Shown here: piece after piece, positions 10,251 to 47,289 of the stretch
How the letters are laid out: every line of letters begins with the position of its first letter
Numbering within the stretch: position 1 is the stretch's first letter
Translations under genes and position numbers: made by a program
The notes under the pieces: model-generated
What the model was told of the DNA's origin: nothing
Databases searched by the model: none
Seen by the model: the letters and a program-made list of their open reading frames with translations, nothing else
Assembly (NCBI GenBank): GCA_015178975.1
Contig: WHVD01000015.1
Coordinates: forward strand, 992,001-1,056,000
DNA: 64,000 nt
Origin: Hysterangium stoloniferum
Taxonomy: Eukaryota; Basidiomycota; Agaricomycetes; Hysterangiales; Hysterangiaceae
Direction of reading: 5' to 3'

Positions 10251-11013
10251 AAGAACATGGTTGTAAGACCGACTGTTAGGCGGACGTCATCAGCCTGTCA
10301 TCTCGGACAAGTAGATACGACCTGATACAGCTTACCCATCCAAAACTTGCAGAACAAATTCAGCCAGCTCTTGAGACATCGTGAAGAAATGCAAGGTGAG
10401 GGACTCGTGTAGAAATGACTGTTACTTATATGGGACAACATCTTTTAATAATAAGAAGGCTGTATAGTAGGCACATCTACCTCATAGAATAGGGCTCCAC
10501 CTCCAATCATCGGATCTTCATTCTGATACTATCCATTGATATGAACTGAGTGTTACGACCCGGACAAATCCCGCCGGACTCCGGGCACTAACCCGTACGC
10601 CCCCACGCGCCACAAGCACCAATCGTCTGTTTATAGGATTTCCCGCCCGGACTCCGTTATGCCAAGACTCATTACATTCGACCTCATTACGACACATATC
10701 AGTAACCAGACTTCCCCCGGACTCCATCTTTGTCTATGTCCGTCTTTGTCCCACGCATCAGTCACCGGATCCCACTCAGAATCCCGTCACCGCTCTATTC
10801 GAGCCCCGTTCCCGTTTTAGTCAAATGACCTGTCACGATTAGGACTCCGCTCCCGCTCCGTTTCCCGTTATGGGTTATGCTTTGTCACGATTCGGACTCC
10901 GCTCCGTTCCGTTCCGTTCCTAACACCAAATTTGGTGTTTACATTTCCCGTTTGTGTTTTGTTAGTTTCGTTTTCATTATTACCGGATTAGTATGTTCAT
11001 TCACTCCATGGTC

Positions 11014-11057
11014 TATTTAAACTGGCAGATGTTGTACATACAATCCAGTCAGAAAAT
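11014..11057 (+). promoter_or_regulatory. E1 TATA box and predicted transcript start
   Basis: TATTTAAA at 11014-11021 lies 32 nt upstream of CAGTCAGAAAAT (11046-11057). That 12-mer is exactly complementary to the sequence 2 nt after the LTR (11363-11374). In self-priming elements such as Tf1 the first bases of the transcript pair with the primer site, so 11046 is the likely start of R. The same geometry is seen in E2 and in the element at 21157. Confidence 0.75.
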
Positions 11058-11276
11058 TAGTTTAGATTCCCCCCTTTAATCTATATATTTTCCCTACTCT
11101 AAATCACACCGCTCGCACTAGTCGGAGCCCACGGGCTCCGACGTATCTATCTCTCCCGACTATCTCGACTCACGACTCACGACCTCATGACCTACGACCT
11201 ACGACCTACGAACCCTGCCCGGACTCCCCGGGATTCCCGTCTGCCTGTTCGAAATTGGACAACACGATCTAGCGAG

Positions 11277-11299
11277 GGCGCAGCCTATAAGCTGAAGCC
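11277..11299 (+). promoter_or_regulatory. Conserved leader hairpin, E1
   Basis: GGC-G-CAGC-CTATAA-GCTG-AA-GCC can fold into a stem of GGC/GCC and CAGC/GCTG with a small internal loop and a 6-nt apical loop. It is transcribed between the predicted transcript start and the primer site. The same stem occurs in E2 and solo LTR K, whose surroundings are otherwise unlike, and in decayed form in several older LTRs. Confidence 0.65.
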
Positions 11300-11362
11300 A
11301 AGTCCTACCGGATATCCCGCGGGTTTCTCACGAGATCCGCCCTGTGTGTGTATCCTAACAGT

Positions 11363-11374
11363 ATTTTCTGACTG
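11363..11374 (+). promoter_or_regulatory. E1 primer binding site, self-priming
   Basis: ATTTTCTGACTG is the exact reverse complement of 11046-11057 in the LTR. No match to a tRNA 3' end (TGG start) is visible next to the LTR. This suggests that the transcript's own 5' end primes reverse transcription, as known for Tf1 and sushi elements. Confidence 0.75.
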
Positions 11375-11395
11375 ATACTCACAGATTGTTTCATT

Positions 11396-12671
11396 ATGCC
11401 ACCAAAAAGAAATACACGCGCTCAGGCATCATTACCTGGACCGTCAACTCTTCATTCCCCGTTATCTCTGTATACCAGCCAGACATCCTTGGACCAACTG
11501 GAACCCATGGAAGAAGCCCGTATCGAAGAAGTCCCGGAAAACCAGGACGACTCCGAGCACGAGGACGATTCCGTGGCACCCGACAAAGGAAAAGGTGTCG
11601 AAAATCCTCCGCCAAATCAGCGACCGCACTTGGGGGATCCTACTTCTGATTTTTAGCAGGCACTATAGATAAATTTATGACGCACCTGCTTGAAGAACGA
11701 AAGAAAAAGGAACAAGAACCTCCACACGGTCAAAAGTCAATGCTCCGGAACCCTTCACGGGTTCCAACCCAAACAAACTTTCCACTTTCCTCATGCAATG
11801 TCGCTTCAATTTCCATGATCGTGCCGCTGCATTCTCCACGGACTCCCGAAAAGTCAACTACGCACTTTCGTACTTGTCGGGATCCGCGTTGAAATGGTTC
11901 GAACCGGCTTTTAGCGGGATTTCCGAGGAAGAGCCGCTCTGGCTTGAAAATTGGGATGCTTTTGTTGAAGAGCTTGAAACCAACTTTGGCCCGTATGACC
12001 CGACAGGAGAAGCCGAGAACAGTCTCACAAATCTTCGCATGAAGGACACGCAGCGCATCACGGACTATATCGTCCAATTCAATAATCTTGCAGCTCGTTG
12101 TCAGTGGGGCGATTCCGCTCTCCGCCACCAATTCTACGCCGGTCTGCCGTCCCGCCTTAAAGACGAAGTCTCGAAAGGAGAAGATGGCAAGCCAAAAACC
12201 CTGTCCCGTATGCGCCTTAAGGCTCAAAACGTGGACGCACGTTATTGGGAATGTCGCGCGGAAGTTGCCCGCGAGACGTCCGCGGACAAAGGAAACAAGT
12301 CCAAGGACAATAAAAATAATACCAATAATTCATCAACCGGCAACTCCACGCAATCCGACAAGAAGAACGATAAAAAGTCTTCAAACAACAACAACAACAA
12401 CAAGGACAATAAGGACAACAAAAGTCAACAGTCCAGCAAGCAAGCCGGAAAACCCGATCTCTCAGGCAAACTCGGACCCGATGGCAAATTGACCCCACAG
12501 GAAAGACAACGTCGTATGGACAACAACCTCTGTCTACTGTGCGGGAAACCCGGTCATCGAGTCCCGGAATGTCCGCTGGCAAAAGCAAACTCTTCTAAGG
12601 GACGAACAGCCAAGGCCTCCACGGATACCCCGTCGAAGGACAAACCGGCGTCCGACTCGAAAAAAGAGTAA
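11396..12671 (+). pseudogene. E1 gag, stop and two frameshifts
   Basis: The start is the ATG at 11396 (MPPKRNTRAQ). That frame ends at a TAG at 11654-11656. The capsid region continues first in the frame of 11677 (LEERKKKEQEPPH) and then in the frame of 11793, which runs open to TAA at 12669-12671. The homologous E2 gag is intact at 408 residues and shows what is missing. The capsid has WFEPAFSGIS and WDAFVEELETNFGPYD. A CCHC zinc knuckle (CLLCGKPGHRVPEC) sits near the C-terminus, after a Lys/Asn/Ser-rich linker. Gag would form the particle and bind RNA. About 65 bp around 11655-11720 hold all the damage. Confidence 0.9.
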
Positions 12672-12706
12672 GCAACCCCGCGGACTCCGCGCGGGTTGGG
12701 GGTTGC
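12660..12706 (+). promoter_or_regulatory. E1 gag-pol -1 frameshift signal
   Basis: Six A's (12660-12665) followed by GAG and the gag stop TAA lie just before a hairpin. Its arms are GCAACCCC (12672-12679) and GGGGTTGC (12699-12706), with a smaller GCGG/CCGC stem inside. Slipping back one base opens a frame without stops that joins gag to pol. E2 has the same slippery run and spacing, with arms GCAACCCTC/GAGGGTTGC, a compensated change. Function is inferred. Confidence 0.75.
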
Positions 12707-15700
12707 GTTGCCTCTCCGCGCATTCAAGAGTTCACTCGCCTCAACGCATCCGCTCTCTCACATTCTGATTCATTTTTCGTTAAACTTATGTCTAATATGA
12801 TCCCGAAATTCGTTTTTTCAGCTCTCATAGATTCCGGCTCGACTCATTGTTTTTTAGATACAAAATTCACGCAAAAAAATTCTTTGTCAACTTATTCGAT
12901 AAATCCCGTCGGCCTCCACCTCTTCGATGGCACAAGTAATTCGGTTGTTACCCAAGCTTGTGATTTATCCATCACGTTCCCGTGTGGAACATCTCAATTG
13001 GTCACTTTCTATGTGACCCAGTTAGACTCAAGTTGCTCGGTGGTTCTAGGACATAACTGGCTTACCCGCTACAATCCGTTGATTGACTGGATAGCTAACA
13101 GTATAACATTCCGGACCCCCGTGGCAGCCGAGGAAACTGCACCTGTCTCGGCCTCCACGGCACCCATGGCCTTCCTGGCACCTGCAGTCTCGAGGACTCC
13201 TGTGATCCCTACGGCACCTACAGCTTCCCCGGAACCCACGGCACCTCCGTCCATTTCTCTGATTAATGCTGCAGCTTTTATTAGGGCTTCAAAAATGGAT
13301 GGGTCCCAGGCGTTCACTATCAACTTAAAAATTGATGAAGCAACTGGACGTTTTTCAACCCTGGTATCTGAATCTGAGCAAGCCGCTGACCTAGAAGGCG
13401 TCCCGGAGAAATATCATGACTTCGCGGATGTTTTTAGCAAGCGAAAAGCTGACCGGCTTCCGCCTCACAGAGAATACGACTTAAAAATCGATCTTGAAGA
13501 TGGCACCCAGCCACCCCTAGGACATATTTACCCGCTCTCGTCCACGGAACTCTACGCAATCCGTGATTTCCTGGATGAACATTTGTCCATAGGTTTTATT
13601 CGACCCTCAAAGTCTCCTTTTGGAGCACCTGTTCTGTTTGTCAGAAAAAAGGATGGATCCCTTCGACTATGTGTTGATTTTAGAGGACTCAATGCTGTCA
13701 CCAAGAAGGATAAATATCCACTCCCACTCATATCTGATCTGCTCGATGCTCCGCGGAATGCCTGAATTTATACCAAAATAGATCTCAAACATGCCTATCA
13801 TTTGGTCCGGATCGCCGCGGGTGACGAATGGAAAACCACTTTTAGAACCCGTTATGGGGCCTTTGAGTGGTTGGTGATCCCCTTTGGACTCACCAATGCT
13901 CCTTCTGTTTTTCAGCATTTTATCAACGACATTTTCTCCGACATGCTCGATGTATGCGTCATTGTTTACTTGGACGATATTCTTATCTACTCCGAGAATC
14001 CCGCGGAACACGACAAACAAGTCCGTGAAGTTCTCCGGAGACTTCGAAAACATGGTTTATTCGCAAATGGTAAAAAATGTACTTTTGACACGGACTCCGT
14101 GGAATACCTAGGTTTCATGATGGGACCCGATGGACTCCGCATGGACGAAACTAAAGTGCAAGTCATCAAAGATTGGCCCGAACCCCGAAAAGTTAAAGAT
14201 ATACAATCCTTCCTCGGCTTTGCCAATTTTTACAGACGTTTTATCCGTGGATATTCCGACATCACGGTACCCCTTACCCGTCTTACGCGCAAGGGTACTC
14301 CGTGGAATTTCAACGATAAGTGTCAAAAAGCTTTCAATCTTTTAAAAAATTCTTTTTCTACAGCTCCTATTCTATCGCATTGGAAACCAGACTTCCCACT
14401 CATTGTTGAAACGGACGCCTCGGACTATGCACTTGGAGCCATTCTGTCTATCCAGGACTCCGACGGAGAAGTCCACCCCGTGGCTTTTCTGTCCCAGACT
14501 TTTACCGGAGCAGAGCTCAACTACGACGTTCATGATAAAGAACTTCTGGCAATTTTTTCAGCTTTCAAAGTGTGGCGACACTACTTGGAAGGTTCAGGAG
14601 CTCCTATTGACGTTGTAACAGATCACAAAAACCTGGAATACTTTTCTACCACAAAACTTTTGACCCACCGGCAGGCCCGCTGGTCTGAATATCTATCTGC
14701 TTTCAACATGATTATCCGCTTTCGACCCGGCCATCTCGGCGGCAAACCCGACGCTTTAACTAGACGATGGGACGTCTACCCTAAAGAGGGGAGCAACGAC
14801 TATGCCATGGTAAATCCGCACAACCTGAAACCTATTTTCACGAATCAACAACTTACCGCATCGGTCCGCGCAACTTTCCTCGTCAATCCCATTGTCCGTG
14901 GAATTATCATTATGGATATCGAGAAGTTACATCAAGATATTCTATCGGCAATTCCCCTAGATCCAATTACTAAAGCTCATCTAGACAATCCCATGGACCC
15001 CGATCAACCTCGGTGGTCTCTTGATCAGCATGGTTTCATTAGACTTGACGATAGGATCTATGTACTGGACTCCGATGGCCTCCGCCTAAGGATCCTTCAA
15101 TACAAACATGATCATCCACTCTCAGGACACTTCGGGTACAACAAAACTCTATCATTAATAAGAAGAGAATACACTTGGCCCGGACTCCGTGGATTCGTTA
15201 AGCACTATTGTAAATCTTGCACTACTTGTCCCCGCTCGAAATCTCAGCGACACAAGCCATACGGCCTTTTGAAACAACTCCCGGTACCGGAACACCCGTG
15301 GAATTCTATCTCTATGGATTTCATTGAACACCTACCGGATTCCGAAGGCTTTTCTGCCATTCTAGTCGTTGTTGACAGATTCTCAAAACAAGGTATATTC
15401 ATCCCTACATATGACACAATTACGTCCGTGCAGCTAGCGGAACTTTTCATTATCCACGTATTTTCCAAGCACGGAGTTCCGTCCCACATGACTTCCGATA
15501 GAGGATCAGAGTTCGTGTCTCACTTCTTTAGATCCCTCGGAAAATCCTTGGACATGACCTTACATTTCACGTCCGGACATCACCCGGAAGGCGACGGACA
15601 AACCGAACGCGTCAATCAGACATTGGAACAATACCTCCGCGTATATTGCAATTATCAACAGGACAATTGGAAATCCTTGTTACCACTTGCAGAGTTTGCT

Positions 15701-16387
15701 TACAACAATGCTCCTTCGGCCACTACTGGCGTTTCCCCGTTCTTTGCAAATAAAGGATATAATCCAAATATTACAGTACATCCAGAACGAAATCTCGCCT
15801 CTGCTCGCGCTCAAGAGTTCACCACGGACCTCCACGAGGAACTCCGGACTGCAATCAAGTCCGCCCAAGAGCAATATCAACATTCAGCGGACAGACACCG
15901 GATCCCGCCACCCAATTTCAAGATAGGTGACCGTGTCTATGTCAAAGCTCAATTCTTTAGGACAACCCGTCCATCAAAAAAGCTTGCTGAAAAATATTTA
16001 GGTCCGTTTGAAATTATCGCACAAGTAGGTTCAGTTTCTTGGACTCTACGGCTTCCGGATAGCATGTGCGCGGTACACCCAGTATTTCATGTTTCTATGT
16101 TAGAACCTTGTACTGCTAACACTATCCCGGATCGCGTGCAATCCCCGCCTCCTCCTGTCGTCATTGACGGAGAACCCGAGTTTGAAATCTCTCAGATTTT
16201 AGATTCAAAAATTGACAAGCGTCGACGCACTTGTAAACTGCTTTACTTGGTCAAGTGGGCGGGTTACGAGGGCACCGATGAAGAGACTTCATGGATTTTG
16301 GCCACGGAACTCGGTAATGCCACGGAAATCGTTACTGACTTTCATACAGCTTACCCACTCAAACCTGGACCATTATCGTCTCCCTGA
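12663..16387 (+). pseudogene. E1 pol with chromodomain, one premature stop
   Basis: Read in the -1 frame from the frameshift site, pol is open except for one TGA at 13763-13765, where CGA (Arg) is expected from E2 (CGG). In order: retropepsin ([11 protein letters not shown], near 12815), reverse transcriptase with YLDD (near 13970), RNase H (ETDASDYALGA, near 14410), zinc-binding HHCC domain (from HDHPLSGHFG near 15110), integrase core (MDFIEHL; SDRGSEF; HPEGDGQTERVNQ) and a C-terminal chromodomain (EFEISQILDSKID, LLYLVKWAGYEGTDEETSW). The chromodomain would steer integration to modified histones. The single stop fits deamination of a methylated CpG. The polyprotein is otherwise full length. 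Confidence 0.93.
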
Positions 16388-16591
16388 CCGCACTCCACGG
16401 ACCCCGTGTTACGTTTGGACTCATTAACATTTTTCCCTGTCGCCCTATGTCTCTCTTTGCTTTTACAGGTTCTGACATGTCTTTTTCAAGTCTTTAAGTG
16501 GAATTCCCACGGACTTTGACTTTGACTTTTATTTTTATGTTTTTCACGCTTTACTTTTAATTTCAATTATTTTTTATTTCTATATTACTTT

Positions 16592-17584
16592 TCAGTCTAC
16601 ATTTATGGGACTGTCCTTTTTCCCCGCCTCCTGTTTTACCGCCTCAGCCATCTCCCCAGGAAGCTCCGCGATCTCCGTGGCAACCCCTTCCTCATCCGAC
16701 CCGGCATCCTCGGAACTTCCATTCTGCGGCTCCTCATACACATAGCCGCCATACTCCGCCAGGAATTTCCAAAACTCCCCGCGGAGTCCGGACAGCTCCT
16801 TCGCCACCCTCACTTGGACTCTGTTGCTCTTTTGGAGCAACACATTTTGGGCCTCGATGCCCTCAGCGATCCGCCCGAGGACCTCGTCCAACCCGGAAAA
16901 CCCGTCCGTCCCGCTAATGTCCCGCACCCCGGACCCCGTGGCTTGCTCATGCACAAGCGAACACCTCGCCTTGAGGTGCGCGCATTGATAGCAGCCCGGC
17001 CCCTGGCCGGACTTCCTGTTACACTCCGTGTTCCGGTCACTACAACCGGAGCACCGCGGCTCGTTCCACGTCGGCAGTCGGACTGGTGCCGCCTTCCTTG
17101 CCCTCTGTTGATATGATCAGTTCTTATCGGTTATCCCACGGACATGAGACTTACCTTTTGGGGGCTCTCCGGCTCCCCCTCGGACTCCGACTCCACCTCT
17201 GTCACTTTGCACTGAAAATCACTAGTCAGTAAAAAGCTTGACAAGTTGAACATTGGGACTTACCTTTCCCGCAACAACGGCGGCCCTCTCCGCGGCCACC
17301 CGGGCCTTCTCTGCAGCCACCCGGGCGTTCTCCGCAGCCATCCGTGCAGCCTCCTCCACCTCACGTTCCCTCACGGCCTCTTCCTCCGCGGCCAATGCTT
17401 CCTGGTACTCCTTATCCAGGGCCTCCTCGGCCTCCCTCGCCTCTCTCTCTGCCGCTTCGTGCAGTTGGCGCTGCTCTTCTCGCCGCGCCAACAACTGGGC
17501 TGCACTCCATGGCGCCCGATACGGAGTGCCCGTGGAGGGCCCTGCTGTCGGCATTGGTTTGCGTGGTGTGGGTTTTGGTCCCAT
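16592..17584 (-). CDS. E1 antisense spliced gene: coiled-coil protein with Zn(II)2Cys6-like cluster
   Basis: Three exons on the reverse strand between pol and the 3' LTR: 17584-17264, 17211-17155 and 17104-16592 (891 nt, 296 residues plus stop). Both introns have GTAAGT donors and AG acceptors (51 and 50 nt) and keep the frame. The start ATG (MGPKPTPRKP) lies 52 nt after a TATA box. Residues about 28-105 form an Ala/Glu/Arg-rich coiled coil, exon 2 is acidic, and exon 3 starts with a cluster C-x2-C-x6-C-x9-C-x2-C-x6-C (residues 144-174). This is the spacing of fungal Zn(II)2Cys6 DNA-binding domains. E2 carries a homologue with the same three-exon layout. The frame is fully open although gag is broken. 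Role unknown; a regulator of the element or its host is inference. It could also be a captured host gene. Confidence 0.8.
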
Positions 17585-17633
17585 GATGACGATGATGGGG
17601 GTAATGAAGAAGAAGAAATATCTATTTTTCAAA

Positions 17634-17643
17634 TTTTTATATA
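17634..17643 (-). promoter_or_regulatory. TATA box of the E1 antisense gene
   Basis: The reverse strand reads CCTATATAAAAA here, 52 nt upstream of the antisense ATG at 17584 and outside the LTR. This points to a dedicated promoter. E2 has GTATAAAAAC at the same relative place. Confidence 0.6.
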
Positions 17644-17783
17644 GGCTCGTCGCATTTGAACCTTACCTTCCAGATCACATGACTCTTTGACACATACGTG
17701 TAACCGACATGACTTTTGACACATGCGCGTAGCCGACAAGAACCTTATCTAGGTCTAGAGCCTCTTTGGGACTTCGGCATAAA

Positions 17784-17793
17784 GGGAGGATAC
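17784..17793 (+). promoter_or_regulatory. E1 polypurine tract
   Basis: AAGGGAGGATAC immediately precedes the 3' LTR, the usual site for plus-strand priming. Confidence 0.7.
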
Positions 17794-18603
17794 TGTTACG
17801 ACCCGGACAAATCCCACCGGACTCCGGGCACTAACCCGTACGCCCCCACGCGCCACAAGCACCAATCGTCTGTTTATAGGATTTCCCGCCCGGACTCCGT
17901 TATGCCAAGACTCATTACGTTTGACCTCATTACGACACATATCAGTAACCGGACTTCCCCCGGACTCCGTCTTTGTCTATGTCCGTCTTTGTCCCACACA
18001 TCAGTCACCGGATCCCACTCAGAATCCCGTCACCGCTCTATTCGAGCCCCATTCCCGTTTTAGTCAAATGACCTGTCACGATTAGGACTCCGCTCCCGCT
18101 CCGTTTCCCATTATGGGTTATGCTTTGTCACGATTCGGACTCCGCTCCGTTCCGTTCCATTCCTAACACCAAATTTGGTGTTTACATTTCCCGTTTGTGT
18201 TTTGTTAGTTTCGTTTTCATTATTACCGGATTAGTATGTTCATTCACTCCATGGTCTATTTAAACTGGCAGATGTTGTACATACAATCCAGTCAGAAAAT
18301 TAGTTTAGATTCCCCCCTTTAATCTATATATTTTCCCTACTCTAAATCACACCGCTCGCACTAGTCGGAGCCCACGGGCTCCGACGTATCTATCTCTCCC
18401 GACTATCTCGACTCACGACTCATGACCTCACGACCTACGACCTACGACCTACGAACCCCGCCCGGACTCCCCGGGATTCCCGTCCGCCTGTTCGAAATTG
18501 GACAACACGATCTAGCGAGGGCGCAGCCTATAAGCTGAAGCCAAGTCCTACCGGATATCCTGCGGGTTTCTCACGAGATCCGCCCTGTGTGTGTATCCTA
18601 ACA
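17794..18603 (+). repeat. E1 3' LTR
   Basis: 810 bp, same length as the 5' LTR. All 14 differences between the two are CG in one copy against TG or CA in the other. Confidence 0.97.
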
Positions 18604-18689
18604 CTGAGCATCCATGACAAGTACCTTCCGAACTGGACACAGGAAAGAAAGCACATAATAGAAGCTTTTGTCATTTGATGAATCTATAG

Positions 18690-19565: not shown

Positions 19566-20625
19566 TGTGGGAATTACATAAGCAGGGGTCAAATATTGAC
19601 CTGAGCTGGATTTTCCACCATTTTCTTGCTGCATGAACATTGACAGATGACCCAGCAGGGAAACCTGCTACCTCGTAGCATGACCTACATCAGCTTAGGT
19701 GATCGTTGATCACGGGTTAAAGCCTGACAGAATTTCATTGCAGGCAAAGGTCGGCATGAATTCATTATCTTATCACTCCCTTTGGACCAGGCTCAGTAGT
19801 AGACTCCTAAACAGTAACTCTGGAAGGATGAAATGGTAGGGGTAAGTGGTATCCCCTGATGAGAGCTTTCGTTGGCTCGAAACCGTTACATTCTGTTTCT
19901 CCTAGCCACCCTCTACTCTAGCTGACAAAGTTCAATCTTCAGAGACAACTGATTGCAGTGATTGATAAGGTGGTGGTCTGCCTAGCGGCGCTCTGGTGGA
20001 CACTGGTGACCATGCATTGCTTCACCTTGCTAATGAACCAGCAACCCCTAAGTTTGGATTACATGTTTAATGCTCTTAACCCCTGAGCTATCAGGCCATT
20101 AAGAGTAGTTCTATTAAGAACCAGTTACTCTGAGATGATTAGTCATCAGTAAGATATTAATATATCCAGGTCAACCATTACTGTCACAACTGTCACATGT
20201 CACGTATTGTCACAAACATTCAAAGGTAACTTTCGACAACTCTTCGACCTATTGAATTCAACTCGACAAACCGAACATTAATCGACACCATCGAATCTCT
20301 TTCGACATGTCTCATTTCGACGTCATATATGATTTCATAATTAGTTCATAACATAGTCATAGTGATACGACAAAAAGCATAAAAGGGCTACGAAAGGAGC
20401 GAGGGAAGTCAGTCGAAATATCTGTATATTAGTGATATTAGTAATCTACTTTGTCGTAACCTCTTCGACAAATACTTCCATGAGTCCTCGCGACTGGTAT
20501 TAGCCTCTTACTTCATCGACAGGGTGAATATATACTTCGTCGAACGAGGCTTCCGAATTCGATTTGTAGAATATTATTCGACTTTATTGAAGAACATTCG
20601 ATTCGTGACAATTACTCATTCAACA
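19566..20625 (+). repeat. Solo LTR-like insert J in isomerase exon 2
   Basis: A TG..CA-bounded insert (TGTGGGAATTAC to TCATTCAACA) is flanked by AAAAG (19561-19565 and 20626-20630). The intact gene reads CCAAAAGCTCC at this spot. Without the nested LTR H it is 626 bp. No coding sequence is seen. The reverse strand near 20097 has a TAGCTCAGGGG pol III A-box-like motif, probably fortuitous. Confidence 0.65.
20182..20610 (+). repeat. Solo LTR, family H
   Basis: 429 bp from TGTCACAACTG to GATTCGTGACA, flanked by ATTAC (20177-20181 and 20611-20615). It is saturated with TCGA (about 14 in 400 bp). A decayed relative lies inverted at 50743-51206. Confidence 0.85.
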
Positions 20626-21156
20626 AAAAGGACCTTCTACCTTATATGATCATCCCAACACCTCGTTTGCATCATTGCTTGCTATCAATACGGAGTACTT
20701 CCTCGGCCCATGTACAATATCTAAATTTCCTATCACATCTGGCAAGGAGAGTAATAAGCGGAGTCCTGAAATTCCTTACCTGTTCAAAGTTTTTTCAATC
20801 GCCAAAGCCCTTCCATTATAGGCTCACCCCAATAAAAAACTCACCAAGAAACTTAAGATTACTAACCAGAAGGGTTTCGTAGATGCCAATCACAAACCAG
20901 AGATGGCACTGGCATTAGGAGACTTTCGAGGATTTGTCGGTTTCAAGCCTATCAAAGATATCCTGCAGGTTTGGGAGGCGACACCAGAACTCCGAGAGGC
21001 TTGTGGAATAGAGATAACGGCCAGGGATGCAGATCCTATCAAATCCGTCATATCCAGTTTGCTTCTCGTGTTGAAATAGTTGAATAACACTTTGCAGAAC
21101 ACCCCTGTGAGTGTGATTGGAAAGTAAACACTAAGGAGACTTTAAACTGTAAAGAC

Positions 21157-23151
21157 TGTTAACTTTTGGGAATTTGGTAAACGAGCGGCAAGGACTCAGG
21201 GTATTAGTAAGCAGGTTACTAGGCTATATAAGGATGAGTCATGTATAGTAGTACTCATCCGTTTACAACGAGTTAACTGTTACCTACTCAGACAAACGGA
21301 AAGTTATATGGTCTAAGAACAGCACCACTGAAAACTTAACATAAACGGATCACGGCTAGCTACCGTTAACCAAAGCTAGGTGCTGTGCAGACCACCTTTG
21401 ATCTCGTCGCTACAAATCGCCGTTCCGCGCACTGTCGTTCGTCGCGTGGACTTCATTCGTCGCATACCACCACTCATTCTTATCGTCATTCTCACACACC
21501 ATACAAGGCCTTCTGCAATATCCTGGATCTCGAATACGCTTCCAATAACGCTGCGGTGATCTGGCTGACCGAGGTGCCGAAGATCCTAGAGCCGCTGAGC
21601 CTGAGGATGGCAACCCGACAGGTCAATCGTGAGCTGGAAAGACAAGGTGTCTTTGCCAGAGGGAATGCTATGACTGCTATGTCTTGGAGAGCTACTGTGC
21701 GTCAGGATGGAGTTGCTGTAAGAAGGATCAGACTGTGGGGAGAGTTGGACGGTATGTATTCTTCACTTGAGGGAGTGGGAATGGTCACTGCGAGCCCCTC
21801 ACGCTCGAGGGAGTGCAATAGATTTGGGATAGCGAGGGATAGCGAGCATTAGGACTCGTGGCACAACATGCAGGGACTGCCACGTACGCAACAGCCAGGA
21901 GCTGCTGTCTACGTCACACGCATCACGGGTGGCTCCCGTTAACCACAGCTGAACTGCGAACATGCGAGACCTCAAATCGAGATGACTCGACGTACAAAGA
22001 CCCGCGGGCAGTTCCGGGCATCGAAGAAAGTCCTCACCTTTTCGAGGCACCACCAATCACAACTACCGCCAATCTCGCAATCGACGACAGTTGCGATAGA
22101 GATGGATGCGAAAGTATGGCGCGCAGGAACACCCAGCGGATGACTGAGGTAGCGGCCGATCGCAGTCTCATCGTGAGCCAGAGGGACGGAAGAGCCCTAC
22201 TGGAGGGAATGCTGACCCGGGTGATTAGCTAGATGGGCAAGGGAATGTTGGTGATGGGGTGACGAATTGGAAGAAGAAAATTAAGAATTTCACTTCGAGG
22301 CGCATCACAGGATGACGACAACTGGCGACTGACTTTCTCACCAGCGCACATACTCACACACGTTTCGGATCGTTTGCACCTCAACGCTGCATGATATATT
22401 TCTGAGCCTCTATGCTCGAGGGAGTGTATTGGAGTATTGTGAGCACTAGGGCTGGAGTCGCAAGGGTCAGGGACTGTCCACATCCACAATGGTCCAAAGC
22501 TGGCACGTAACCGCCATATATTGCCACGTATCAAGAAACCGACTGTCCTTTTTTTTCAACGTCGCACATTGTTTATCATTTATCACACATCACATTGGCA
22601 CTAAGACACTAATTCACGCCTATATTCACACAGCGGCAACTCTTACGATCCGCGTTTATCATTGCCCACCCATTGGAAGAGCCAAATCGTGATTTTACTA
22701 CTCGGCAGGTTTGTCCTGGATCACTGTCGAACATCGCTACTTGCCAATATCGCCTGCAATATCCGTGATAGGATTTGCGATTGGATTGGGAGTGGGAGTC
22801 GAAGTGATGGACAACTGTGTGGGAGTACTCGGGGTTCAAGGAGCGCATTTGAGAGGGACTTAGAGGTTGTTGCAGTTGTCTCAGGGAGTTCAGGCAGATG
22901 AATTTAGGGAACTTAGGTTTCAGGGAGTGCTATGGTTACTGTGAGTCCCTTTTGCTCGAGGGAGTGTGTTAACTTTTGGGAATTTGGTAAACGAGCGGCA
23001 AGGACTCAGGGTATTAGTAAGCAGGTTACTAGGCTATATAAGGATGAGTCATGTATAGTAGTACTCATCCGTTTACAACGAGTTAACTGTTACCTACTCA
23101 GACAAACGGAAAGTTATACGGTCTAAGAACAGCACCACTGAAAACTTAACA
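21157..23151 (+). mobile_element. Small non-autonomous LTR retrotransposon
   Basis: LTRs of 186 bp (21157-21342) and 185 bp (22967-23151) differ by one base and one indel. The target duplication is AAGAC (21152-21156 and 23152-23156). The primer site TAAACGGAT directly after the 5' LTR is the reverse complement of ATCCGTTTA (21257-21265), 32 nt after TATATAA (21225-21231), so it too looks self-priming. The tract CGAGGGAGTG precedes the 3' LTR. The 1.6-kb interior has no retroviral domains. Open frames at 21385-21852 and 21858-22232 are unrecognised. A decayed solo LTR of this family is at 28335-28505. The near-identical LTRs mean a recent insertion. Confidence 0.85.
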
Positions 23152-23402
23152 AAGACATACCTGTGAGTGTGATTGGAAAGTAAACACTAAGGAGACTTTC
23201 CCACACCCACAGTGGACTATACTACTAGGTACTTATCTAAGCACCTATACAGGAGGTACCGACCTAAGGTAACTCACTCAATACTGCACCTATGTACAGT
23301 GCTGGGAAAAATACTACAAATATCAGAAAAATATAGAGATCATAATAGACTATGTTAGAGCTGTAGTATCATACTCTAACACTCTTACCTGATGAGACAG
23401 CT

Positions 23403-26400
23403 CTATGCTAGTCCCAATAGTTTTCTCAAATATTCCACCTTTGGCTTAGCCAATGGTTTGGTTAATAAATCTGCAGGCATCTCTGAAGTAGGTAGATGAA
23501 CCACTTTAATCTTCCCACTATCAACTTCCTGCCTTAACCAATATGTCCTCAAATCAAGATGCTTCATTCGACCATGGTGTTCAGGATCTCTGGCAACTGC
23601 CATAGCAGATTCAATCGGTTGTCAAGGTACAATGTGGATGCAGTCTTTTGAGGATATCCCAATTCCTCAAACAAGTTCCGCAACCATAATACCTCTGCAC
23701 CTGCTGATACTGCTGCAATATACTCTGCTTCATTAGTAGAGAGAGTAACAATAGTTTGCAGTTTACTCTGCCAGCTAATGGCTCCAGTACCCATTTTAAC
23801 CACATACGCACCAGTAGATTTTCCAGTAGATTTATCACCTCTATGATCAGCATCTGAATAGGACACAAATAGTTCCTTGTCATTACTAGGGCCATAGGTC
23901 AAACCCAAGTCAAGGGTGCCTTTGAGGTAGCGGAAAAGATGTTTTACTGCTAGCCAATGAGCCTTTCCTGGATTGTGATTGAATCTAGCCAATACACCAA
24001 CAGTGTAAGCAATGTCTGGATGAGTGGCAACAGCTAAATACATAAGAGACCCAACAGCATGGATGTATGGAATGTCCTTCATATATGCAATCTCCTCAGG
24101 GGACACTGGAGCCTGGTCTTTACTCAATTTCAAGTTAGGCACCATAGGTGTACTAATTGGATTGCAATCAGCAAGACCATAACGCTGTAACATGTCCAAA
24201 ATGTATTGCCGCTGTGATAGAGTAATGGTTCTCTTCTTCCTGTCCCGTTCAATGCCAACACCCAATAAGTAAGTAATTGGACCAAGATCATGCAATTTGA
24301 AGTGGCTCTTTAGATCATCTTTGAGCTTCTTGATAGCCTCCTTGGACTTAGATGCAATAGTCATGTCATCTACAAATACTGGTATAATGACTTTGACATC
24401 ACCCTTTTGGAAGACCCAAATACTATGATCACATAGTACCTGTTTGAAACCCAAGCTGAGCAAGACAGCATTCAACTTCTTGTGCCAGATACATGGTGAT
24501 TGACGTAAACCATAAAGTCCTTTCAAGAGAAGTAAAAACTCATCATGAGCACCTTGGTGAAAACCCTCAGGTTGTTGCAAGTACACCTCCTCTTCAAGTT
24601 CACCATTTAAGAATGCAGAAGAGATATCTATACTCTCAAGTTCCATATCCTCTAGGGCAGCCAAAGCTAGAACAGCACGTAAGGTGGCCCATTTGGCAGT
24701 AGGAGCAAAGGTATCAGTCAAGTCAAACCCTGGTCGCTGTGCATAGCCTTTGGCAACAAGACGAGCTTTGAACTTATCAATTGAGCCATCCTTTTTATGC
24801 TTTATTACGAATACCCAACGAGAGCCAATAGCTTTACGACCCTCAGGTAATTTGGCAAGACGAAAGGTGCCATTTTCAAGCAAAGATTGCATTTCAGCAT
24901 ATGCAGCATCATACCATTTGTCAGCATCAGGACTTTGCAAGGCCTCTTTGAGAGTTCTAGGTGCATTATCATTGGCACTAGCCTTGTAAGCAAACTCAAA
25001 GGCCTCATCTACAGAGATATAAAGATCTCCTTCACTGGCACCTAGAGCTTCCTCCTCAGACTCCACTGGTTGAGGAGAAGCTGGTACAGAATCCTCTGCT
25101 TCATCACTGGACTCAACTACAGGAGTAGATTCTCTATAATTGTGGATGTTAGCAGGGTAATGCATAGGAGGAACTCTGTTTCTGGGTGGATTGCGATGTG
25201 GTTGAGGACTTGGTGAATGCTCAGAAGCAGAATCAGAGCTAGAGCCTGAATCAGGAGCCAAAGCATTACCCTGATCATCTCCCACCCGATTTGGTTCCTG
25301 TGGAGCTCCCACCTGAGTAGACCCAGAGGGGCCAGGAATAAACATATCAATGAATTGTTGGGTATCAGGAAAAACCTTAGGAATAGATAGTGGTGGTGGT
25401 GATGGTGTAGTCTGCTTAGATAGTCCTGGCAAAACTCTCTCATCAAAAACAGCATTATTACTGACTATAATCTTTTTAGTCAGTGGATTGTAAAATAACC
25501 AACCCTTATAATCTGAAGGATATCCAATGAAGACACACTTTTGTGTGTGAGAGACAAGTCCAACACGTTGATCCTTCTGTATATGTACATAGGCAGTGGA
25601 TCCAAATACCCTAAGATTTGACACATCTGGTTTTCTGCCATGGAAAGCAGTATAGGGCACAGAATGTTTAAGAGCAGTAGTAGGGGAGCGATTGCGTACA
25701 TAAGTAATTGCAAGAACAGCATGTCCCCAAAAAGAAGGAGGAAGGTGGGATTCATTCAAAATTGAAGTGGACCCTTCTTCCAGTGTCCTATTAAAGTGCT
25801 CAGCCACACCATTCTGGTGAGGCTCACTTCGGACAGTATGCTGCTGACTAATGCCAGCATTTGCAAGGAAGGCATCAAATTCCCTTGATATATACTCTCC
25901 ACCCTTGTCATCCCTAAAAATCTTAATCGTCTGACCAAGTTTATTTTCAACACTAGCCTTGTATAGCTTAAAAGCCTCAAATACATCCCTCTTGTTTTTG
26001 AGTAATGCAGTCATAGCATAGCGTGAGGCATCATCAATGAAGGTTACCCAATAGCGAAACCCTTCCAGAGTTTGTGTAGGTAATGGACCATGAACATCAC
26101 TATGAATGAGTGCAAGTGGTTTAGTATAGCATGTTGTCACCATCTTATTAACCACTCTGTTCTGTTTACCAGCTAAGCAAGGTTCACAAATAGGATCTGG
26201 AGCAATCTGAGAGTCAATCTGAATACCAGTGACCAAGTCCCCTGTCATAAGCTTCTTAACATCAGCATGATTCAGATGACTGAAACGACAATGCCAAAGT
26301 GTAGAGTCTAATGGACAGGTTGTAACAAGACCAGCATAATCTGTCATAGGTACTGTAATTCCATCTAAATAGGCCTGATTCTGTTCATTGACTGTTGCAG

Positions 26401-27157
26401 TGAAACGCAAAACCTTCTTCTGATAGAAAGACATAGTAGAACCAAAGATAGAAACATGGTAGTTCTTTTTCTTTGTCAAGTACAAGACTGAGAGTAGATT
26501 GCTTGTGAGATGGGAAACATGAAGAACTCTTTGAAATTCCAAAATTATATTGCCTTTGCCTTTAGGCTTAAACCACACAGCTCCTATTCCTGCAGACATA
26601 ATGATATGTCCATTTGCAACTTGGATAGGAATTTGAAATGGTTTATAGCTTGAAAACCAGTGACGATGTGGTGTCATATGGGAAGATGCACCTGTGTCAG
26701 CTGTCCAATCAGAACTAGCATGAACAAGGAGAGCACAAGATGGATCAGAAGGATCAGGAATATAAGCACTTGCATTTCCAGCAGACTCTGGCTGTTTCTC
26801 CTCTGAGACTTTATCAGAGACATTAGCATGTGCTTTGGCTACCTTTCTCCTTTTATATTTCCTCTTCTTCTGCTCCACTTGTTTTAATGCCTTCTTCTGT
26901 GCAAATTTATAAAGATGGCAATTATTCTGTATATGACAGCAACACTTGCAAAAGGTGCAAGTAGAATGTGCCTGGTGAAGTTTCAACCACATATCATTAG
27001 GAGCATCATTAATATTAATATGACTGCTCTGGATAGATCCAATAGAGCGCCAAATAATACCAGCTGCTTTGTTGGAGCATTCCAACCAGGATGTAAGTAG
27101 TTTAACATCATTGGGCCGTTTTTCTTTTCCAAGGACAATGGAAAGGCAATTCTCCAT
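23403..27157 (-). pseudogene. Copia gag-pol polyprotein, gag deleted and one frameshift
   Basis: The reverse strand is open from 27157 to about 23620 and then continues one frame over to 23403. The order is: a short gag start, a CCHC knuckle (CTFCKCCCHIQNNC), protease (DTGASSHMT), the GAG-pre-integrase finger (HCRFSHLNHADVKKL), integrase core (DVHGPL, HQNGVAEHFNRTL), reverse transcriptase (VFVDDMTIAS) and RNase H (SYSDADHRGDKSTGKST; ending VEYLRKLLGLA). Most of gag between the first 60 residues and the knuckle is missing. The frameshift lies in RNase H near 23620. Upstream of 27172 the open frame is antisense isomerase sequence, not copia. Confidence 0.9.
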
Positions 27158-27626
27158 ACACAATAAACCAATCGCATATCTATTGGGAGACATCATCGAG
27201 TGCATGGCTGCCTCGGATAATGTGGTGAATGCAGTATTTGTGCCTCCAGAAGATAGAGACCCACGTATATTCATGGAGATGCTGACCTATGTGCCCCGAC
27301 CAGCAGAAACCTTCAGCATACCTTCAAACTCGTATAAGGGCAGTACATGTGGACGTACAACAGCCTATGACCCACCCCTTGCGGAATTTACTGTACTGCA
27401 TACTTCTCTCGATCCGCATTACAACGAGGAACAGCTTGAACCTGCCCCCGGGCCGACTACCGGGATCATGCTGGAGGGTGAAGTTCATATTACCACTGCA
27501 GCGGATAAAGAGGGGATATATTTAAAGGCCGGTGGCATGATTTTTGTGGCTGCTGCTCAGAAATTTCAATTACACGCAGTTGCTAGAGGAGCAACGGAAA
27601 TATTCTGGTCTACAGTCATTGTATAG

Positions 27627-28891
27627 CCGCTGCTCTGTTGCTATTTTGTCGGGATTAGATCTGTTATAAATGTCTGACTAGAAACAAATAAAATTATCTG
27701 TGTGGCAGATTAAACACAGTGGGGATGCTGGGAACAGACGAAGTCAACAGGTGAACTCATTCTCTGATTCACATGACCCTTTAACTTGCGTTTCAGATGC
27801 CATTTGTCAAACAGCGCATTATACTCTCAATGCAGGCGCAAGCTGTTTAGCTTTGACAATGTGAAAAATGCCCCTGCCTTTCGAATACGAACTCCAGTCT
27901 CCCAGCCTTCTGTCCCATCCGACGGGTACGTTGTACAGAAGGTCCTTCGTTGCTGTCAGACCAAGGTGTGAAAACTTACTGCAATCGTTTGAAAGGTAAG
28001 CATCTACTTGTCAAGCTACCAGCGACGTGTCCGCGCTCACCTATGCAAAGCAAAAATCAGTGTGTTGAGTGTACTTCATCTACCTATGGGATAACAACAT
28101 TTCACACCAAGGACACAGATACTTAAGTGGGGGTTTGGAGTTGAATGCTCACAATCTGTTCGTGAATCCCCTCGGCTTTCATTTCCTCAAAGACTGCATT
28201 AAGACGTTATTACCTGTCTCTCCCTCTGACATGCACAGAATGTATTCAAGTGGAACACAAGACATATGGCATTCCACTGACGGTGTGCAACCTGGGTGCT
28301 ATTCACACATGAAATTGCGAAACCTGAATAATGTCCCACTGTTCTTAGACTGTATAACTTTCCGTTTGTCTGAGTAGGTGATGGTTAACTCATTGTAAAC
28401 GGATGAGAACTATAATACAAGTCTCATCCATATATACCCTAGTAACCCGCTCACTAATAGCCCTGAGTCATTGCTGCTCGTTTACCGAATTCCCAAAAGT
28501 TAACACAAGAAGCCATACCCATGCTGATCAAGCTTATCATGAAAGCTTATCCGAGCTGACTGTGAGTGGAGCCCTTCCAAATCATTTAAAGAGTGATTGC
28601 AAGTGGAAGCAATTATGCAATTATGCATGTTGAAAAATATAACGAGATTGACTCATTGGGGACTATATCAAGGAAAGGACAAATATGACACATTTTGTTC
28701 ATCAGCCCGAGCTGCTGTGGCATCAGCTGGTGCCATACCATTTCAGCTATTATCTATAAAATATTGTTATATGTATTTTAAGCAGTAGTATAATTACACA
28801 TTCACAATGATGAGTTCACATTTCAATGTTGTCTTAGGACCTCCTGGACAAACTATGTGGCGGCATATAATTGATGGATGCGGAAACACTG
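27627..28891 (+). repeat. Inverted copy of the region downstream of the isomerase gene
   Basis: Matches 56270-57272 in reverse complement with scattered substitutions, and is interrupted by a decayed solo LTR at 28335-28505. The match stops at GCGGAAACAC (about 28891), where copia sequence begins. The shared block includes an open frame ending ASAGAIPFQLLS in both copies. Confidence 0.85.
28335..28505 (-). repeat. Decayed solo LTR of the 21157 family
   Basis: Reverse-strand start TGTTAACTTTTGGG at 28505. It ends near the GTCTAAGAACAGT motif at 28335 and lacks the last bases of the LTR. It replaces a short stretch that is present in the uninterrupted copy near 56620-56645. Confidence 0.7.
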
Positions 28892-30895: not shown

Positions 30896-31701
30896 TGTTA
30901 GGGGTGTGTACACAGAGGGTTTCTGGAGAAACCCGCAGGAAAGCTGGTAGGACGTGGCTTCAGCTTATAGGCTGCACCCTCGTGAGATCGTCTTGTCCAA
31001 TTTCAAATGGGTGGACAGGAATCCTGGGGAGTCCAGGTGGGGTTCGTGCATCGAGAGGTTGTGTGTTGAGATAGATAAGTTGGAGGTTGAGTGACAGATG
31101 TGTTGGAGCCCATGGGCTCTGACTAGTGAGAGTGGTGTAATTCAAAGAGGAGTTTAGAGCAGAAAATATACTAAGATTACTGGGGGAAATCTAAGCTGAT
31201 TTTCTGACTGGATTGTATGTACAACATCTGCCAGACTATATAGACTGTGGAATGAATGACATACCAAATGCAGTAATAATGAAAACGAAACTAGCAAACA
31301 TAAGACGAGATAAGTAAACACCAAACTTAGTGTTAGGAATGGAACAGAATGGAGTGGAGTCCGAATCATGACAGGTCATAAACCATAATGGGAAATGGAG
31401 TGGGAGTGGAGTCTGAATCGTGACAGGTCATAAACCAAAATGGGAACGGGGCTCAGTTAGAGGGATGACATGTTTTCCGATCAGGGTCTGGTGACTGATG
31501 TGTGAGACAGGGTTGGAGATAGACAGGGTTGGAGTCCGGCAGGTATTCCAGTGACTGATACATGAAGTAACAAAGTTGAACATAGACAAGTCTGATATAC
31601 AGAGTCTGGTGGGAATTCCAGTGAACTGACAATTGGTGCATATAGGGTGCAGGTGTGTATAAGTTAGTGCCTGGAGTCCAGCAGGACTTCCAGTTGTAAC
31701 A
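30896..31701 (-). repeat. Solo LTR a, E1-like family
   Basis: Reverse-strand LTR from TGTTACAACTGG to CCCCTAACA, flanked by ATCGG (30891-30895) and ATCAG (31702-31706). The one mismatch is a CpG transition. It resembles the E1 LTR but has lost most CpGs. The hairpin motif survives as GGCTTCAGCTTATAGGCTGC on the plus strand. Confidence 0.85.
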
Positions 31702-31855
31702 ATCAGATTAATTGAGTGCTTGTACTTGATTAATTCAATAAACTTAGGGATGGGCCTTGAATAATCTAAGTGTTGGCAGGGATTTCAGTAAGAATACTTA
31801 TTAGATTTATTATGTATTTAATAAGCCTAAAGGGCTGGGGAACTTAGATGATTAG

Positions 31856-33992
31856 TGTTACGACCAGAATTCCCACTGGACTCTGGGCACTAACTTATAT
31901 GCACCTGCACCATACATGCATCAATGTTCAGTTTACCGGAATACCCACCGGACTCCAGATGTCAGACCTGTCCATGCTTAACCTTCATCTTCATGTATCA
32001 GTCACTGGAATACCTGCCAGAACCCACTCCTATCTATCTTGGACCCTGTCCCATGCACCAGTCACTGGACTCCACTTGGAAAATCTGACAGCTCTCTAAC
32101 TGAGCCCTGTTCCCATTATGGTTAAATCACCTGTCATGTTTCAGACCCCACTCCCGCCCCATTCCCATTTATGGTCTAATGACCTGTCACATTTCAGACT
32201 CTGCTTCATTCTGTTCCATTCCTAACACCAAACTTGGTGTTTACTTATCTCGTTTCATGTTTGCTAGTTTAGATTTCATTATTACTGGATTTGGTATGTT
32301 ATACATTCCACAGTATATATAGTCTGGCAGAAATTGTACATACAATCCAGTCAGAAAATCAGCTTAGATTTCCCCCAGTAATCTAATACCTTTTCCACTT
32401 TAAAACTCCTCTTTGAAAATACCACTTCAACCTCGTCGGAGCCATGGGCTCTGACTCTCCTATTGCTCAAGCTCTGACTTATCATCACTCAACCTTCCCT
32501 GAACAATCAGTGACTCCGCAGGTTCCCCACCATCAATCTCCCTGATCCCCAACCTATCATTGTAATGTATTCAGGGGATTCTCTCAGATAGCTTAATATA
32601 TGCTATAGTGTCACAGAGCTTTAACAATAAAATAAGCAAAGGTCCAGTAATTTAAATACTGATAGATTAATGAGCTGTGCTCTTAAGCTTAAACAACTCA
32701 AATCAATGCTTATTTTGATTATTGAATGGTTCAAAAGAACAATATATGACTCTTTTAGCAAATAAAAGAACTATTCCTTGAGAATAGAGGCTAGAAGCTG
32801 AGTATATGTGCAGTAACGTAGCAGAGACTTGATATAAAGCTTCAGATTCTTGTATGCTTATTAGTAACTATTAATAGTTATTTAACAAGGTGTTAAATAA
32901 TTTATTAATAGAGAAGATAATTTGTTTTGGATTATTTGAGTGCTTGTACTTGATTAATTCAATAAACTTAGGGCTGGGCCTTAAATAATCTAGTATTGGC
33001 AGGGAATTTCAGTAAGGATACTTAGATACTTATTAGGTTTATTATGTAATTAATAAGCCTAAAGGGTAGCTGTGAGGCTGGGGGAACTTAGATGATTATC
33101 TAAGTTCAAGAGTTGCTGACAAAGATTCAAGATTCTGCAAGTGTAGGTGCTTGCAGTGAGTGTATCGGACTAAGGCTATTATTGTCCTTAGGATGATTAG
33201 ATAAGCTTCTGAGCTGTGCTGCAAATATGTGTGAGATAGATTGATTTTATTGGAAACTTTGCCCTCCTTATATACATTTTGATAACTAAATATTTAACCA
33301 TTTATTTATTTTATGAGGTCATTATTTAGGTCATAATGACCTCATATTCTACTTATTTTTTACCCTTATTTACCATGTGATTCCCCTCTCTGAGACAAGG
33401 GTTCTAACCTTTGGCTTGAACATGAAGGTTCAAGGCCGCAGTCCCGGGATGGAAGCATTTGATGAGTTGGCAGAATCAAATTATGACTCGAGTAAGTCAT
33501 TACAGTCACATTCGTGACTTGTGTGATATCCCACACCGGAGGCTTATCTAATAAGTCACATGACTCCAAAAATATGCAAACAAGGCTGCAGCAAGGTGCC
33601 AAAAAGCAATAACTAAGTAAATAAAATATAAATAATTAGTTAAAAATTATAATAAAATAAATAAGATATAATAGCATTATATGAGTTCATATATGCTATT
33701 ATTATGCAAAGTTAGGAATTAGGCCTTATATTTCACAATAAAAATATAATAAAAATACAATAAATTCAAGAAAATATTAAATAATTCACAGAAAATTAAG
33801 AGAATATTATGAGATGAGGCTGATACCTCACAACTATCCCTGGACTCCCCGGGATCCCTGTCCACCCATCTGAAATTGGACAACATGATCTCACGAGGGT
33901 GCAGCCTATAAGCTGAAGCCAAGTCCTACTGGCTTTCCCATGGGTGGTTTCTCCAGAAACCCTCTGATAAGCTCCATGCACAACTTTTAACA
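31856..33992 (+). repeat. Solo LTR b, E1-like, split by LTR C copy 2
   Basis: Starts TGTTACGACCAG and ends CTTTTAACA. The target duplication ATTAG is exact (31851-31855 and 33993-33997). Its sequence is interrupted at 32561-33832 by a second LTR C, so LTR C was active both before and after LTR b inserted. Confidence 0.85.
32561..33832 (+). repeat. Solo LTR C, copy 2
   Basis: An uninterrupted 1272-bp copy from TGTAATGTATT to GATACCTCACA. Flanks ATCAT and ACTAT match poorly, so the target duplication is decayed or absent. Confidence 0.85.
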
Positions 33993-34895: not shown

Positions 34896-34897
34896 GT

Positions 34898-34908
34898 ATA
34901 TCAGATCT
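34898..34908 (+). promoter_or_regulatory. E2 primer binding site, self-priming
   Basis: ATATCAGATCT, 2 nt after the LTR, is the exact 11-nt reverse complement of 34645-34655. As in E1, a GT dinucleotide separates LTR and primer site. Confidence 0.75.
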
Positions 34909-34929
34909 CAACTCTGCGACTCGCTCATC

Positions 34930-39847: not shown

Positions 39848-39930
39848 TCTTTCCGTTCTTTTCTGTTCAGCTTCTGACACTTCCGTTTTCACACTCGTTC
39901 TAGGTTTTGCAAATCAAAATATTATTAAAA

Positions 39931-47281: not shown

Positions 47282-47289
47282 CATAGTAG

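Follow-up and report, generated by a model that had tools for sequence, protein, structure and literature searches.

The window analysed in this work is a 64,000-nucleotide stretch of the genome of Hysterangium stoloniferum, a truffle-like fungus of the Agaricomycetes, order Hysterangiales (GenBank assembly GCA_015178975.1, contig WHVD01000015.1, positions 992,001 to 1,056,000 of the forward strand; the genome has 111 Mb in 554 contigs), and its main subjects are two chromoviruses with long terminal repeats (LTRs), named E1 and E2, which both carry an additional gene on the strand opposite to gag-pol. E1 is a complete insertion at window positions 10546-18608, bounded by the 5-bp target-site duplication CTGAG (10546-10550 and 18604-18608). 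Its 5' LTR (10551-11360, forward strand; 810 bp, TGTT...AACA) and 3' LTR (17794-18603, forward strand) are 98.3% identical, with 14 mismatches in 810 positions. The gag region (11372-12671, forward strand) matches Retrotrans_gag and has a CCHC knuckle that scores under the Pfam cut-off, and pol (12599-16387, forward strand) encodes protease, reverse transcriptase, RNase H, integrase, a Tf2-type SH3 domain and a chromodomain. The gag and pol frames are both interrupted in this copy, and the frame of the antisense gene is unbroken.

The antisense gene lies on the reverse strand between pol and the 3' LTR of E1. In a preliminary description of the window it had been drawn as an intact three-exon gene opposite to gag-pol with a TATA box of its own, and our predicted gene model agrees with that drawing down to the exact junctions (17264/17211 and 17155/17104). 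Exon 1 (17264-17584) encodes 107 amino acids rich in Glu, Ala and Arg, which look coiled-coil-like by eye; exon 2 (17155-17211) encodes an acidic segment of 19 amino acids, CKVTEVESESEGEPESPQK; and exon 3 (16592-17104) encodes 170 amino acids and a stop, comprising a zinc-cluster-like stretch, a linker and an acidic C terminus. Both introns, of 52 nt (17212-17263) and 50 nt (17105-17154), run GTAAGT...CAG, and the exons join in phase 0 to give a predicted spliced protein of 296 amino acids. The spacing C-x2-C-x6-C-x9-C-x2-C-x6-C is found at 16961-17053 on the same strand. The TATA box (TATATAAA, 17643-17636) stands 59 bases before the ATG, and that of E2 is at a similar distance. The antisense promoter of E1 also contains two copies of a tandem repeat of about 30 bp, TGTCGG...TGTGTCAAA...AGTCA (17680-17738, reverse strand).

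E2 (34331-41829, forward strand; LTRs 95.2% identical) carries a homologous antisense gene, with introns (40576-40623 and 40678-40730, reverse strand) in the same places as those of E1. Its exon 1 (40731-41063) is coiled-coil-like and has one in-frame stop in the window copy, its exon 2 (40624-40677) encodes 18 amino acids, again acidic, RKAVEVEVEGEAGPSSPK, and its Cys-bearing exon 3 (39931-40575) encodes 214 amino acids and a stop. The sixth Cys has been lost from this copy and is kept in the 29 other E2-type loci described below. Exon 2 of the antisense gene and its flanks bring two basic clusters together across the splice junctions (GK-RK and QK-RARK / PK-KPKVK), and the joined clusters form a probable, possibly bipartite, nuclear signal. 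Expression and splicing of the antisense gene are predicted from the sequence, and a public gene model, P0002 (BU17DRAFT_86143), has the join of exon 1 to exon 2 as predicted. The same model then omits much of exon 3, cysteines included.

Copies of the gene were sought in the genome of H. stoloniferum itself, with exon 3 as the query. For E1, the best 150 of 1289 first-look candidates were scored, all with E <= 1e-79, and for E2 the best 150 of 604; by hand count, exon 3 is free of stops in 112/150 and 116/150 of these matches, respectively. The two lists cannot overlap, because the matches are at least 68% identical to their own query and the queries are 30% identical to each other, and at least 300 exon 3 copies are present in this genome. 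The 30 best matches of each search (E1-type, L009-L038; E2-type, L039-L068) were cut out, and since these 60 loci are best matches, rates of intactness among them are biased upwards. In all 60, pol runs opposite to the gene and lies on its 3' side, and the position relative to the 3' LTR was established for E1 and E2. The preliminary description had counted a lack of conservation of the frame or the cysteines in other copies among its grounds for refutation, and both are conserved: the six Cys are present in 59 of the 60 loci, the window's own E2 being the only miss, and a fully open three-exon model was obtained for 41. Both introns are present in all 60 models, and the second donor is GT in 29 of the 30 E1-type loci (the other splice signals were presupposed by the search patterns and are not independent counts). 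A TATA box stands 48-61 bases before the ATG in every one of the 41 open models and in 46/60 over all loci; in the remaining 14, exon 1 is broken or the start was placed elsewhere, and in one of them a TATA box precedes a later ATG by 127 bases.

The gene differs strongly between the two families. Between E1-type and E2-type sequences, identity is about 30% for exon 3 and, over 8 by 8 copies, 33% for the whole gene, against 81% for the C terminus of pol. Fourteen aligned exon 3 sequences share as invariant residues the six Cys, a Gly and a C-Y-x-C-x2-L-K-x2-C core. The antisense promoter (30-bp tandem repeat and TATA box) is near-invariant in 12 aligned E1-type copies; over all open models its mean divergence is 0.044 with a maximum of 0.288 in E1 (n=20), and 0.067 with a maximum of 0.488 in E2 (n=21), and promoters have changed in some copies. 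Three E1-clade loci were sampled through pol instead of through the gene (L071, L073, L074), and all of this small sample contain remnants of the gene. The genome searches covered this one fungal genome. In the protein collection the only homologues were P0001 and P0002, both hypothetical proteins of H. stoloniferum, a result that does not show restriction to the genus, and a scan of viral contigs gave 51 stretches by pattern and 0 by tblastn. No host homologue was seen among the 150 best scored matches per search, and such searches could hardly reveal one.

The gene is under purifying selection and has diverged fast between the families. The ratio of nonsynonymous to synonymous divergence (dN/dS) was calculated by Nei-Gojobori counts from 39 distinct sequences among the 41 open models, for pairs with dS > 0.05, and the median over the coding sequence was 0.169 in E1 (108 pairs) and 0.343 in E2 (178 pairs). 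For the comparison with pol, 37 open models were used in which the end of pol is open as well (gene dS > 0.05, pol dS > 0.03), and for the same pairs the gene and the pol C terminus gave 0.160 vs 0.154 in E1 (81 pairs) and 0.355 vs 0.193 in E2 (109 pairs). As a frame control, distinct exon 3 sequences (16 E1, 21 E2) were also read in the other frames, which gave 1.40-2.07 (E1) and 0.75-1.60 (E2), whereas the correct frame gave 0.17 and 0.33; over all these calculations, the coding value lies at 0.16-0.17 in E1 and at 0.32-0.36 in E2. The exception is the sense-strand frame whose third positions coincide, with 0.20 (E1) and 0.38 (E2), so that dN/dS alone cannot tell the strands apart. That sense frame is open in 0/23 E1 and 0/26 E2 distinct exon 3 sequences, which were picked for an open antisense frame; the strand is settled by the open frame, the ATG, the introns and the cysteines. 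In length, the two introns of E1 range over 48-58 and 47-52 nt, with differences that are not multiples of three, and they drift in sequence (mean p 0.110 and 0.155), while donors and acceptors are kept, and a CTGAC branch-point-like site occurs in intron 1 of all 30 E1-type loci. Between the families, dN is 0.78 for the gene vs 0.11 for pol (8 by 8 copies).

Two side observations concern divergence at silent positions. Intron 1 of the E2 group (window 40678-40730 and its homologues) has a constant 54 nt in the open models, and its divergence of 0.046 is below that of exon 3 synonymous sites (0.198), unlike that of intron 2 (0.222). At synonymous sites, the gene has diverged about 2.6 times as much as the pol end in the same pairs (0.378 vs 0.142 in E1, 0.155 vs 0.059 in E2), as if gene and pol modules had been swapped between element lineages.

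Fungal zinc clusters keep to the spacing C-x2-C-x6-C-x(5-12)-C-x2-C-x(6-8)-C, and 59/60 loci lie within these limits, with a C3-C4 loop of x9 in E1 and x10 in E2. When the PDB sequences were searched with a profile of 14 exon 3 sequences, PPR1 came first with all six Cys aligned, at an E of 0.036 that is not significant, and LEU3 accounted for two of the 9 PDB matches listed. Alignment by hhalign to 8 zinc-cluster stretches of the same genome gave P 1.5e-4 and a probability of 52% over the Cys6 stretch; either group alone gave P 1.1e-3 (E1) and 5.3e-4 (E2), and the controls, the elements' own integrase H2C2 and gag knuckle, gave 0.23 and 0.88. An AlphaFold2 model of an E2-type exon 3, built with 14 sequences, predicts a long helix at residues 85-160 with block means of the predicted local distance difference test (pLDDT) of 62-88. 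The protein is classified here as zinc-cluster-like and not as a member of Pfam Zn_clus.

The elements themselves are dense in the short motif CGGA. Counts on both strands were made in six parts, namely the LTR, gag-pol and the antisense gene of either element; they come to 18.6-36.0 per kb, or 2.1-4.1 times the context expectation, and the motif is densest in the LTRs (28 per kb in the 3' LTR of E1). The corresponding figures are 6.6 per kb (1.0 times context) for the host stretch at 57-64 kb of the window, 1.1 per kb (0.9 times) for Copia, and 5.5-7.8 per kb (0.56-0.92 times) for eight host loci. When all 6-mers were ranked with protein and codon usage fixed, the top ones were CCACGG (17 vs 2.9 expected) and CACGGA (18 vs 3.5) in E1, and TCGGAA (24 vs 7.6) and CACGGA (12 vs 2.2) in E2; the same ranking gave no comparable CGG-bearing 6-mer in Copia, a gene-less pol or one host gene. 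Codon shuffling also gave no CGGA excess in Copia (4 vs 10.6) or the gene-less pol (1 vs 8.3). As the motifs were chosen from counts in the same elements, their z-scores carry this selection, which the ranking of all 6-mers and the host loci were meant to meet. In the gag-pol alignment of E1 and E2 (71% nucleotide identity), aligned sites are shared in 1/16 cases for CCACGG of E1, 3/24 for TCGGAA of E2 and 3/17 for CACGGA of E1, which is close to the 6-mer background of 14.5%, so that the family-specific forms mostly arose after the split of E1 and E2. An inverted triplet, CGG-N3-CCG, was tried as the common denominator and rejected in favour of CGGA, the counts in gag-pol being 10 vs 1.8 codon-shuffled in E1, an excess, and 0 vs 0.6 in E2, none; in the 3' LTR of E1 it occurs 5 times vs 0.36 expected from shuffling.

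We propose that the antisense gene is an accessory gene of this chromovirus lineage, which would be transcribed from a TATA promoter of its own, situated just inward of the 3' LTR, and whose two short introns would be spliced from the antisense transcript only. Since the sense genomic RNA is unspliceable at these sites, the introns would be inherited by each new copy. The product of about 300-350 amino acids, with a coiled-coil-like N terminus, basic clusters and a Cys6 stretch followed by a long helix, would enter the nucleus, dimerise, presumably bind zinc, and bind CGGA-type sites of the element that encodes it, which are most closely packed in the LTRs. Binding there would control the transcription or the chromatin state of the element, in whichever direction. 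The whole chain, a nuclear, dimeric zinc-cluster-like protein that binds and regulates the DNA of its own element, is in our judgement moderately probable. The preliminary description had offered control of the element's promoter, a part in integration or an action on the host as functions; CGGA density lends indirect support to an action on the element's own DNA, and the other two gained none.

Several results weigh against this proposal. The zinc-cluster assignment of the preliminary description survives in the Cys spacing and in the weak top match to PPR1, and it fails at the Pfam cut-off and at the place of the Lys with which Gal4 contacts bases. Zn_clus (PF00172) scores 10.7 bits vs a gathering cut-off of 21, and among 14 members its best E is 0.38, with 10/14 listed at E <= 10. 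In the PDB search, ranks 2-4 behind PPR1 are unrelated (langerin, interleukin-12). The AlphaFold2 model is unusable in the Cys region, where pLDDT block means are 36-38. By column reading of the alignment, the place of Gal4 Lys18 is not basic: it holds Asn in 8/9 and Ser in 1/9 E1-type sequences, and Asp in 3/5 and Asn in 2/5 E2-type sequences. On the other side of the balance, according to the accessible part of PMC5559640, the proven zinc-cluster regulator Pho7 also has Asn at this place, and its sites carry a single CGG, e.g. TCGGACATTCAA. In the E2 family, dN/dS of the gene is 1.8 times that of its pol. With regard to the motif, one host gene shows a milder CGGA excess (15 vs 8.8 codon-shuffled), and two diverged relatives show none by codon shuffling (10 vs 13.9 in L076, 7 vs 7.3 in L077), with 2.0 and 1.7 times the context expectation. 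L076 is also rich in CCATGG (12 vs 4.3), which may be read as the product of CCACGG by CpG decay. Bare CGGA is shared between E1 and E2 at 32/89 sites vs a background of 27%, so that part of the CGGA excess is old. The excess could stem from a host factor or from mutation bias, and because the gene-bearing elements are one clade, shared ancestry confounds the gene with CGGA density.

A more specific form of action on the element can be drawn by analogy with VANC of the Arabidopsis VANDAL elements. According to the accessible parts of PMC5735166 and PMC10398659, VANC is encoded by the element and evolves together with its motif-dense targets, and its binding and a loss of methylation have been shown in Arabidopsis. 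The antisense protein resembles it in diverging between families while short family-specific motifs have accumulated in its own element, whereas the targets of VANC are noncoding tandem repeats and the E1 and E2 motifs are dispersed over LTRs and coding DNA. The protein might accordingly be conceived as a sequence-specific anti-silencing factor, coating CGGA over the LTRs, gag-pol and its own gene and keeping the element free of CpG methylation, with protein and motif co-evolving by family (CCACGGA and CGGACTCCG in E1, TCGGAA in E2). This idea is tentative and its probability low. In keeping with it, CpG in the gene-bearing elements is at or above the level of the host: the ratio of observed to expected CpG is 1.08-1.40 in the LTRs and gag-pol of E1 and E2, 0.88-1.02 in the antisense genes, and 0.85-1.02 in host loci; on the pol side of the 60 loci the medians are 1.09 and 1.19, with a minimum of 0.58. 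In a second pol family of chromovirus type, which shares 41% identity with E1 pol, the ratio is 0.00-0.29 in 9/9 stretches (L075 and L078-L085, on contigs C441, C221, C532, C24, C525, C79, C346, C410 and C146). One of its copies retains an open frame of 1189 amino acids in the stretch fetched, and the family seems to have lived on despite near-total CpG loss. The antisense gene is absent on the 3' side of three copies of this family (L069, L070, L072). Likeness among the three ceases about 326 bases beyond the SH3 match, where pol ends; further on they are unrelated, with no common 3' LTR seen, and because likeness is lost right after pol, the gene-less family may not be a normal LTR element. 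It also speaks against the idea that the comparison is a single lineage contrast with different ascertainment. The peak of CGGA in the LTRs fits promoter control, and a role like that of VANC would agree with its dispersal over coding DNA. If the anti-silencing idea were true, the protein would correspond to VANC in a fungal retrotransposon, with its binding motif written into coding sequence.

An accessory role in integration or in nuclear import of the pre-integration complex, with the coiled coil binding Gag or integrase and the Cys stretch binding DNA unspecifically, is unlikely. It would make use of the basic clusters at both exon junctions, and with the equivalent of Lys18 lost, binding need not be sequence-specific; nuclear import is also discussed for plant antisense ORFs in the accessible part of PMC7264820. 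The separate, conserved promoter uncouples the gene from the production of Gag-Pol, however, and such a role leaves no place for the family-specific CGGA motifs.

It is quite improbable that the protein acts on host genes, as a manipulator or as a transcription factor captured from the host. Many fungal regulators belong to the zinc-cluster class, and the host genome has 42 Zn_clus matches, but the 8 host loci show no enrichment of CGGA, and the dN of 0.78 for the gene vs 0.11 for pol between families looks more like co-evolution with the motifs of the element. Very improbable, too, is that the antisense transcript is itself the functional product, pairing with genomic RNA to trigger or buffer RNA silencing, with the protein secondary. 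A transcript that covers the region from pol to the 3' LTR would overlap with the sense RNA, a possibility discussed in the accessible part of PMC7264820. An RNA role would, however, need neither a pol-like dN/dS for E1 and one of 0.36 for E2, nor conserved cysteines, nor splice sites that are kept while the E1 introns drift. A chance open frame in G+C-rich DNA with splice-like signals, to which sense-strand open frames in the region (frame -0 is open in 19/23 distinct E1 exon 3 sequences) might have pointed, is refuted by the gene structure in two families, by the cysteines in 59/60 loci and by the low dN/dS of the antisense frame vs 1.40 in frame -0.

Elsewhere in the window, LTR-like fragments akin to the E1 LTR lie in both orientations at 31141-32930 and 45273-50817. 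The gene at 57194-58373, which by eye we take to be mannose-6-phosphate isomerase, has a second, inverted copy of about 94% identity at 20621-27705, the two parts of which are separated by an element that is presumably of Copia type, with an open frame of 1240 amino acids at 23564-27286. The stretches 271-1144 and 2226-2636, on opposite strands, are presumably fragments of Tc1/mariner-like transposases.

Antisense additional genes in LTR elements are already known, from Grande, Retand and Boty. Zhao and co-workers, as cited in PMC8365987 and PMC7264820, reportedly described, in 2011, Boty-like elements of Botrytis cinerea with an antisense gene, brtn; these too are fungal gypsy-type elements with an additional antisense gene, but their host is an ascomycete. 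HBZ of human T-cell leukaemia virus type 1 (HTLV-1) lies antisense at the 3' end of an LTR element, is spliced, and is a nuclear regulator of the basic leucine zipper (bZIP) type; it differs in having a bZIP and not a zinc cluster, in an antisense promoter within the 3' LTR, and in belonging to a retrovirus. HBZ is mentioned in the accessible part of PMC11963269, which deals with the antisense additional open reading frames (aORFs) of plants and in which the words "intron" and "zinc" have 0 occurrences. The plant Ty3/gypsy genes of the aORF-3R group (maize Grande gene23, rice RIRE2, Silene Retand), compared here by description, are likewise antisense additional ORFs, and E1 and E2 agree with them in the position between pol and 3' LTR, in the orientation antisense to gag-pol, and in a constraint like that of other element proteins (dN/dS vs pol). 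According to the accessible parts of PMC7264820 and PMC11963269, the Grande gene has its own promoter and a nuclear product, and the Retand TRP28 domain is predicted to bind DNA; these are plant elements, though, and Retand is called a non-chromovirus there. With the Zn(II)2Cys6 regulators Gal4, PPR1, LEU3 and Pho7, the proteins of E1 and E2 share the order and spacing of the six Cys and a predicted long helix after the cluster, and with Pho7 an Asn at the Lys18 place. They differ in being borne by a retrotransposon on its antisense strand, in an extra N-terminal coiled-coil-like part, and in a C3-C4 loop of 9-10 residues vs 6 in PPR1.

In the open literature searched, no LTR element turned up whose antisense gene is spliced or of zinc-cluster type, and the review PMC7264820, in its accessible part, asks its readers to seek antisense and spliced transcripts. 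What appears to be new here is a spliced, zinc-cluster-like antisense gene in basidiomycete chromoviruses, accompanied by family-specific dispersed motifs. It would represent a route by which an LTR retrotransposon can carry a multi-exon gene, antisense introns being invisible to the splicing of genomic RNA. Basidiomycete chromoviruses are thereby added to the elements with antisense accessory genes; the domain type suggests DNA binding as the mechanism, and CGGA is a candidate site. If the link to CGGA is true, the function of such antisense genes would become directly testable, with at least two pairs of protein and motif in one genome.

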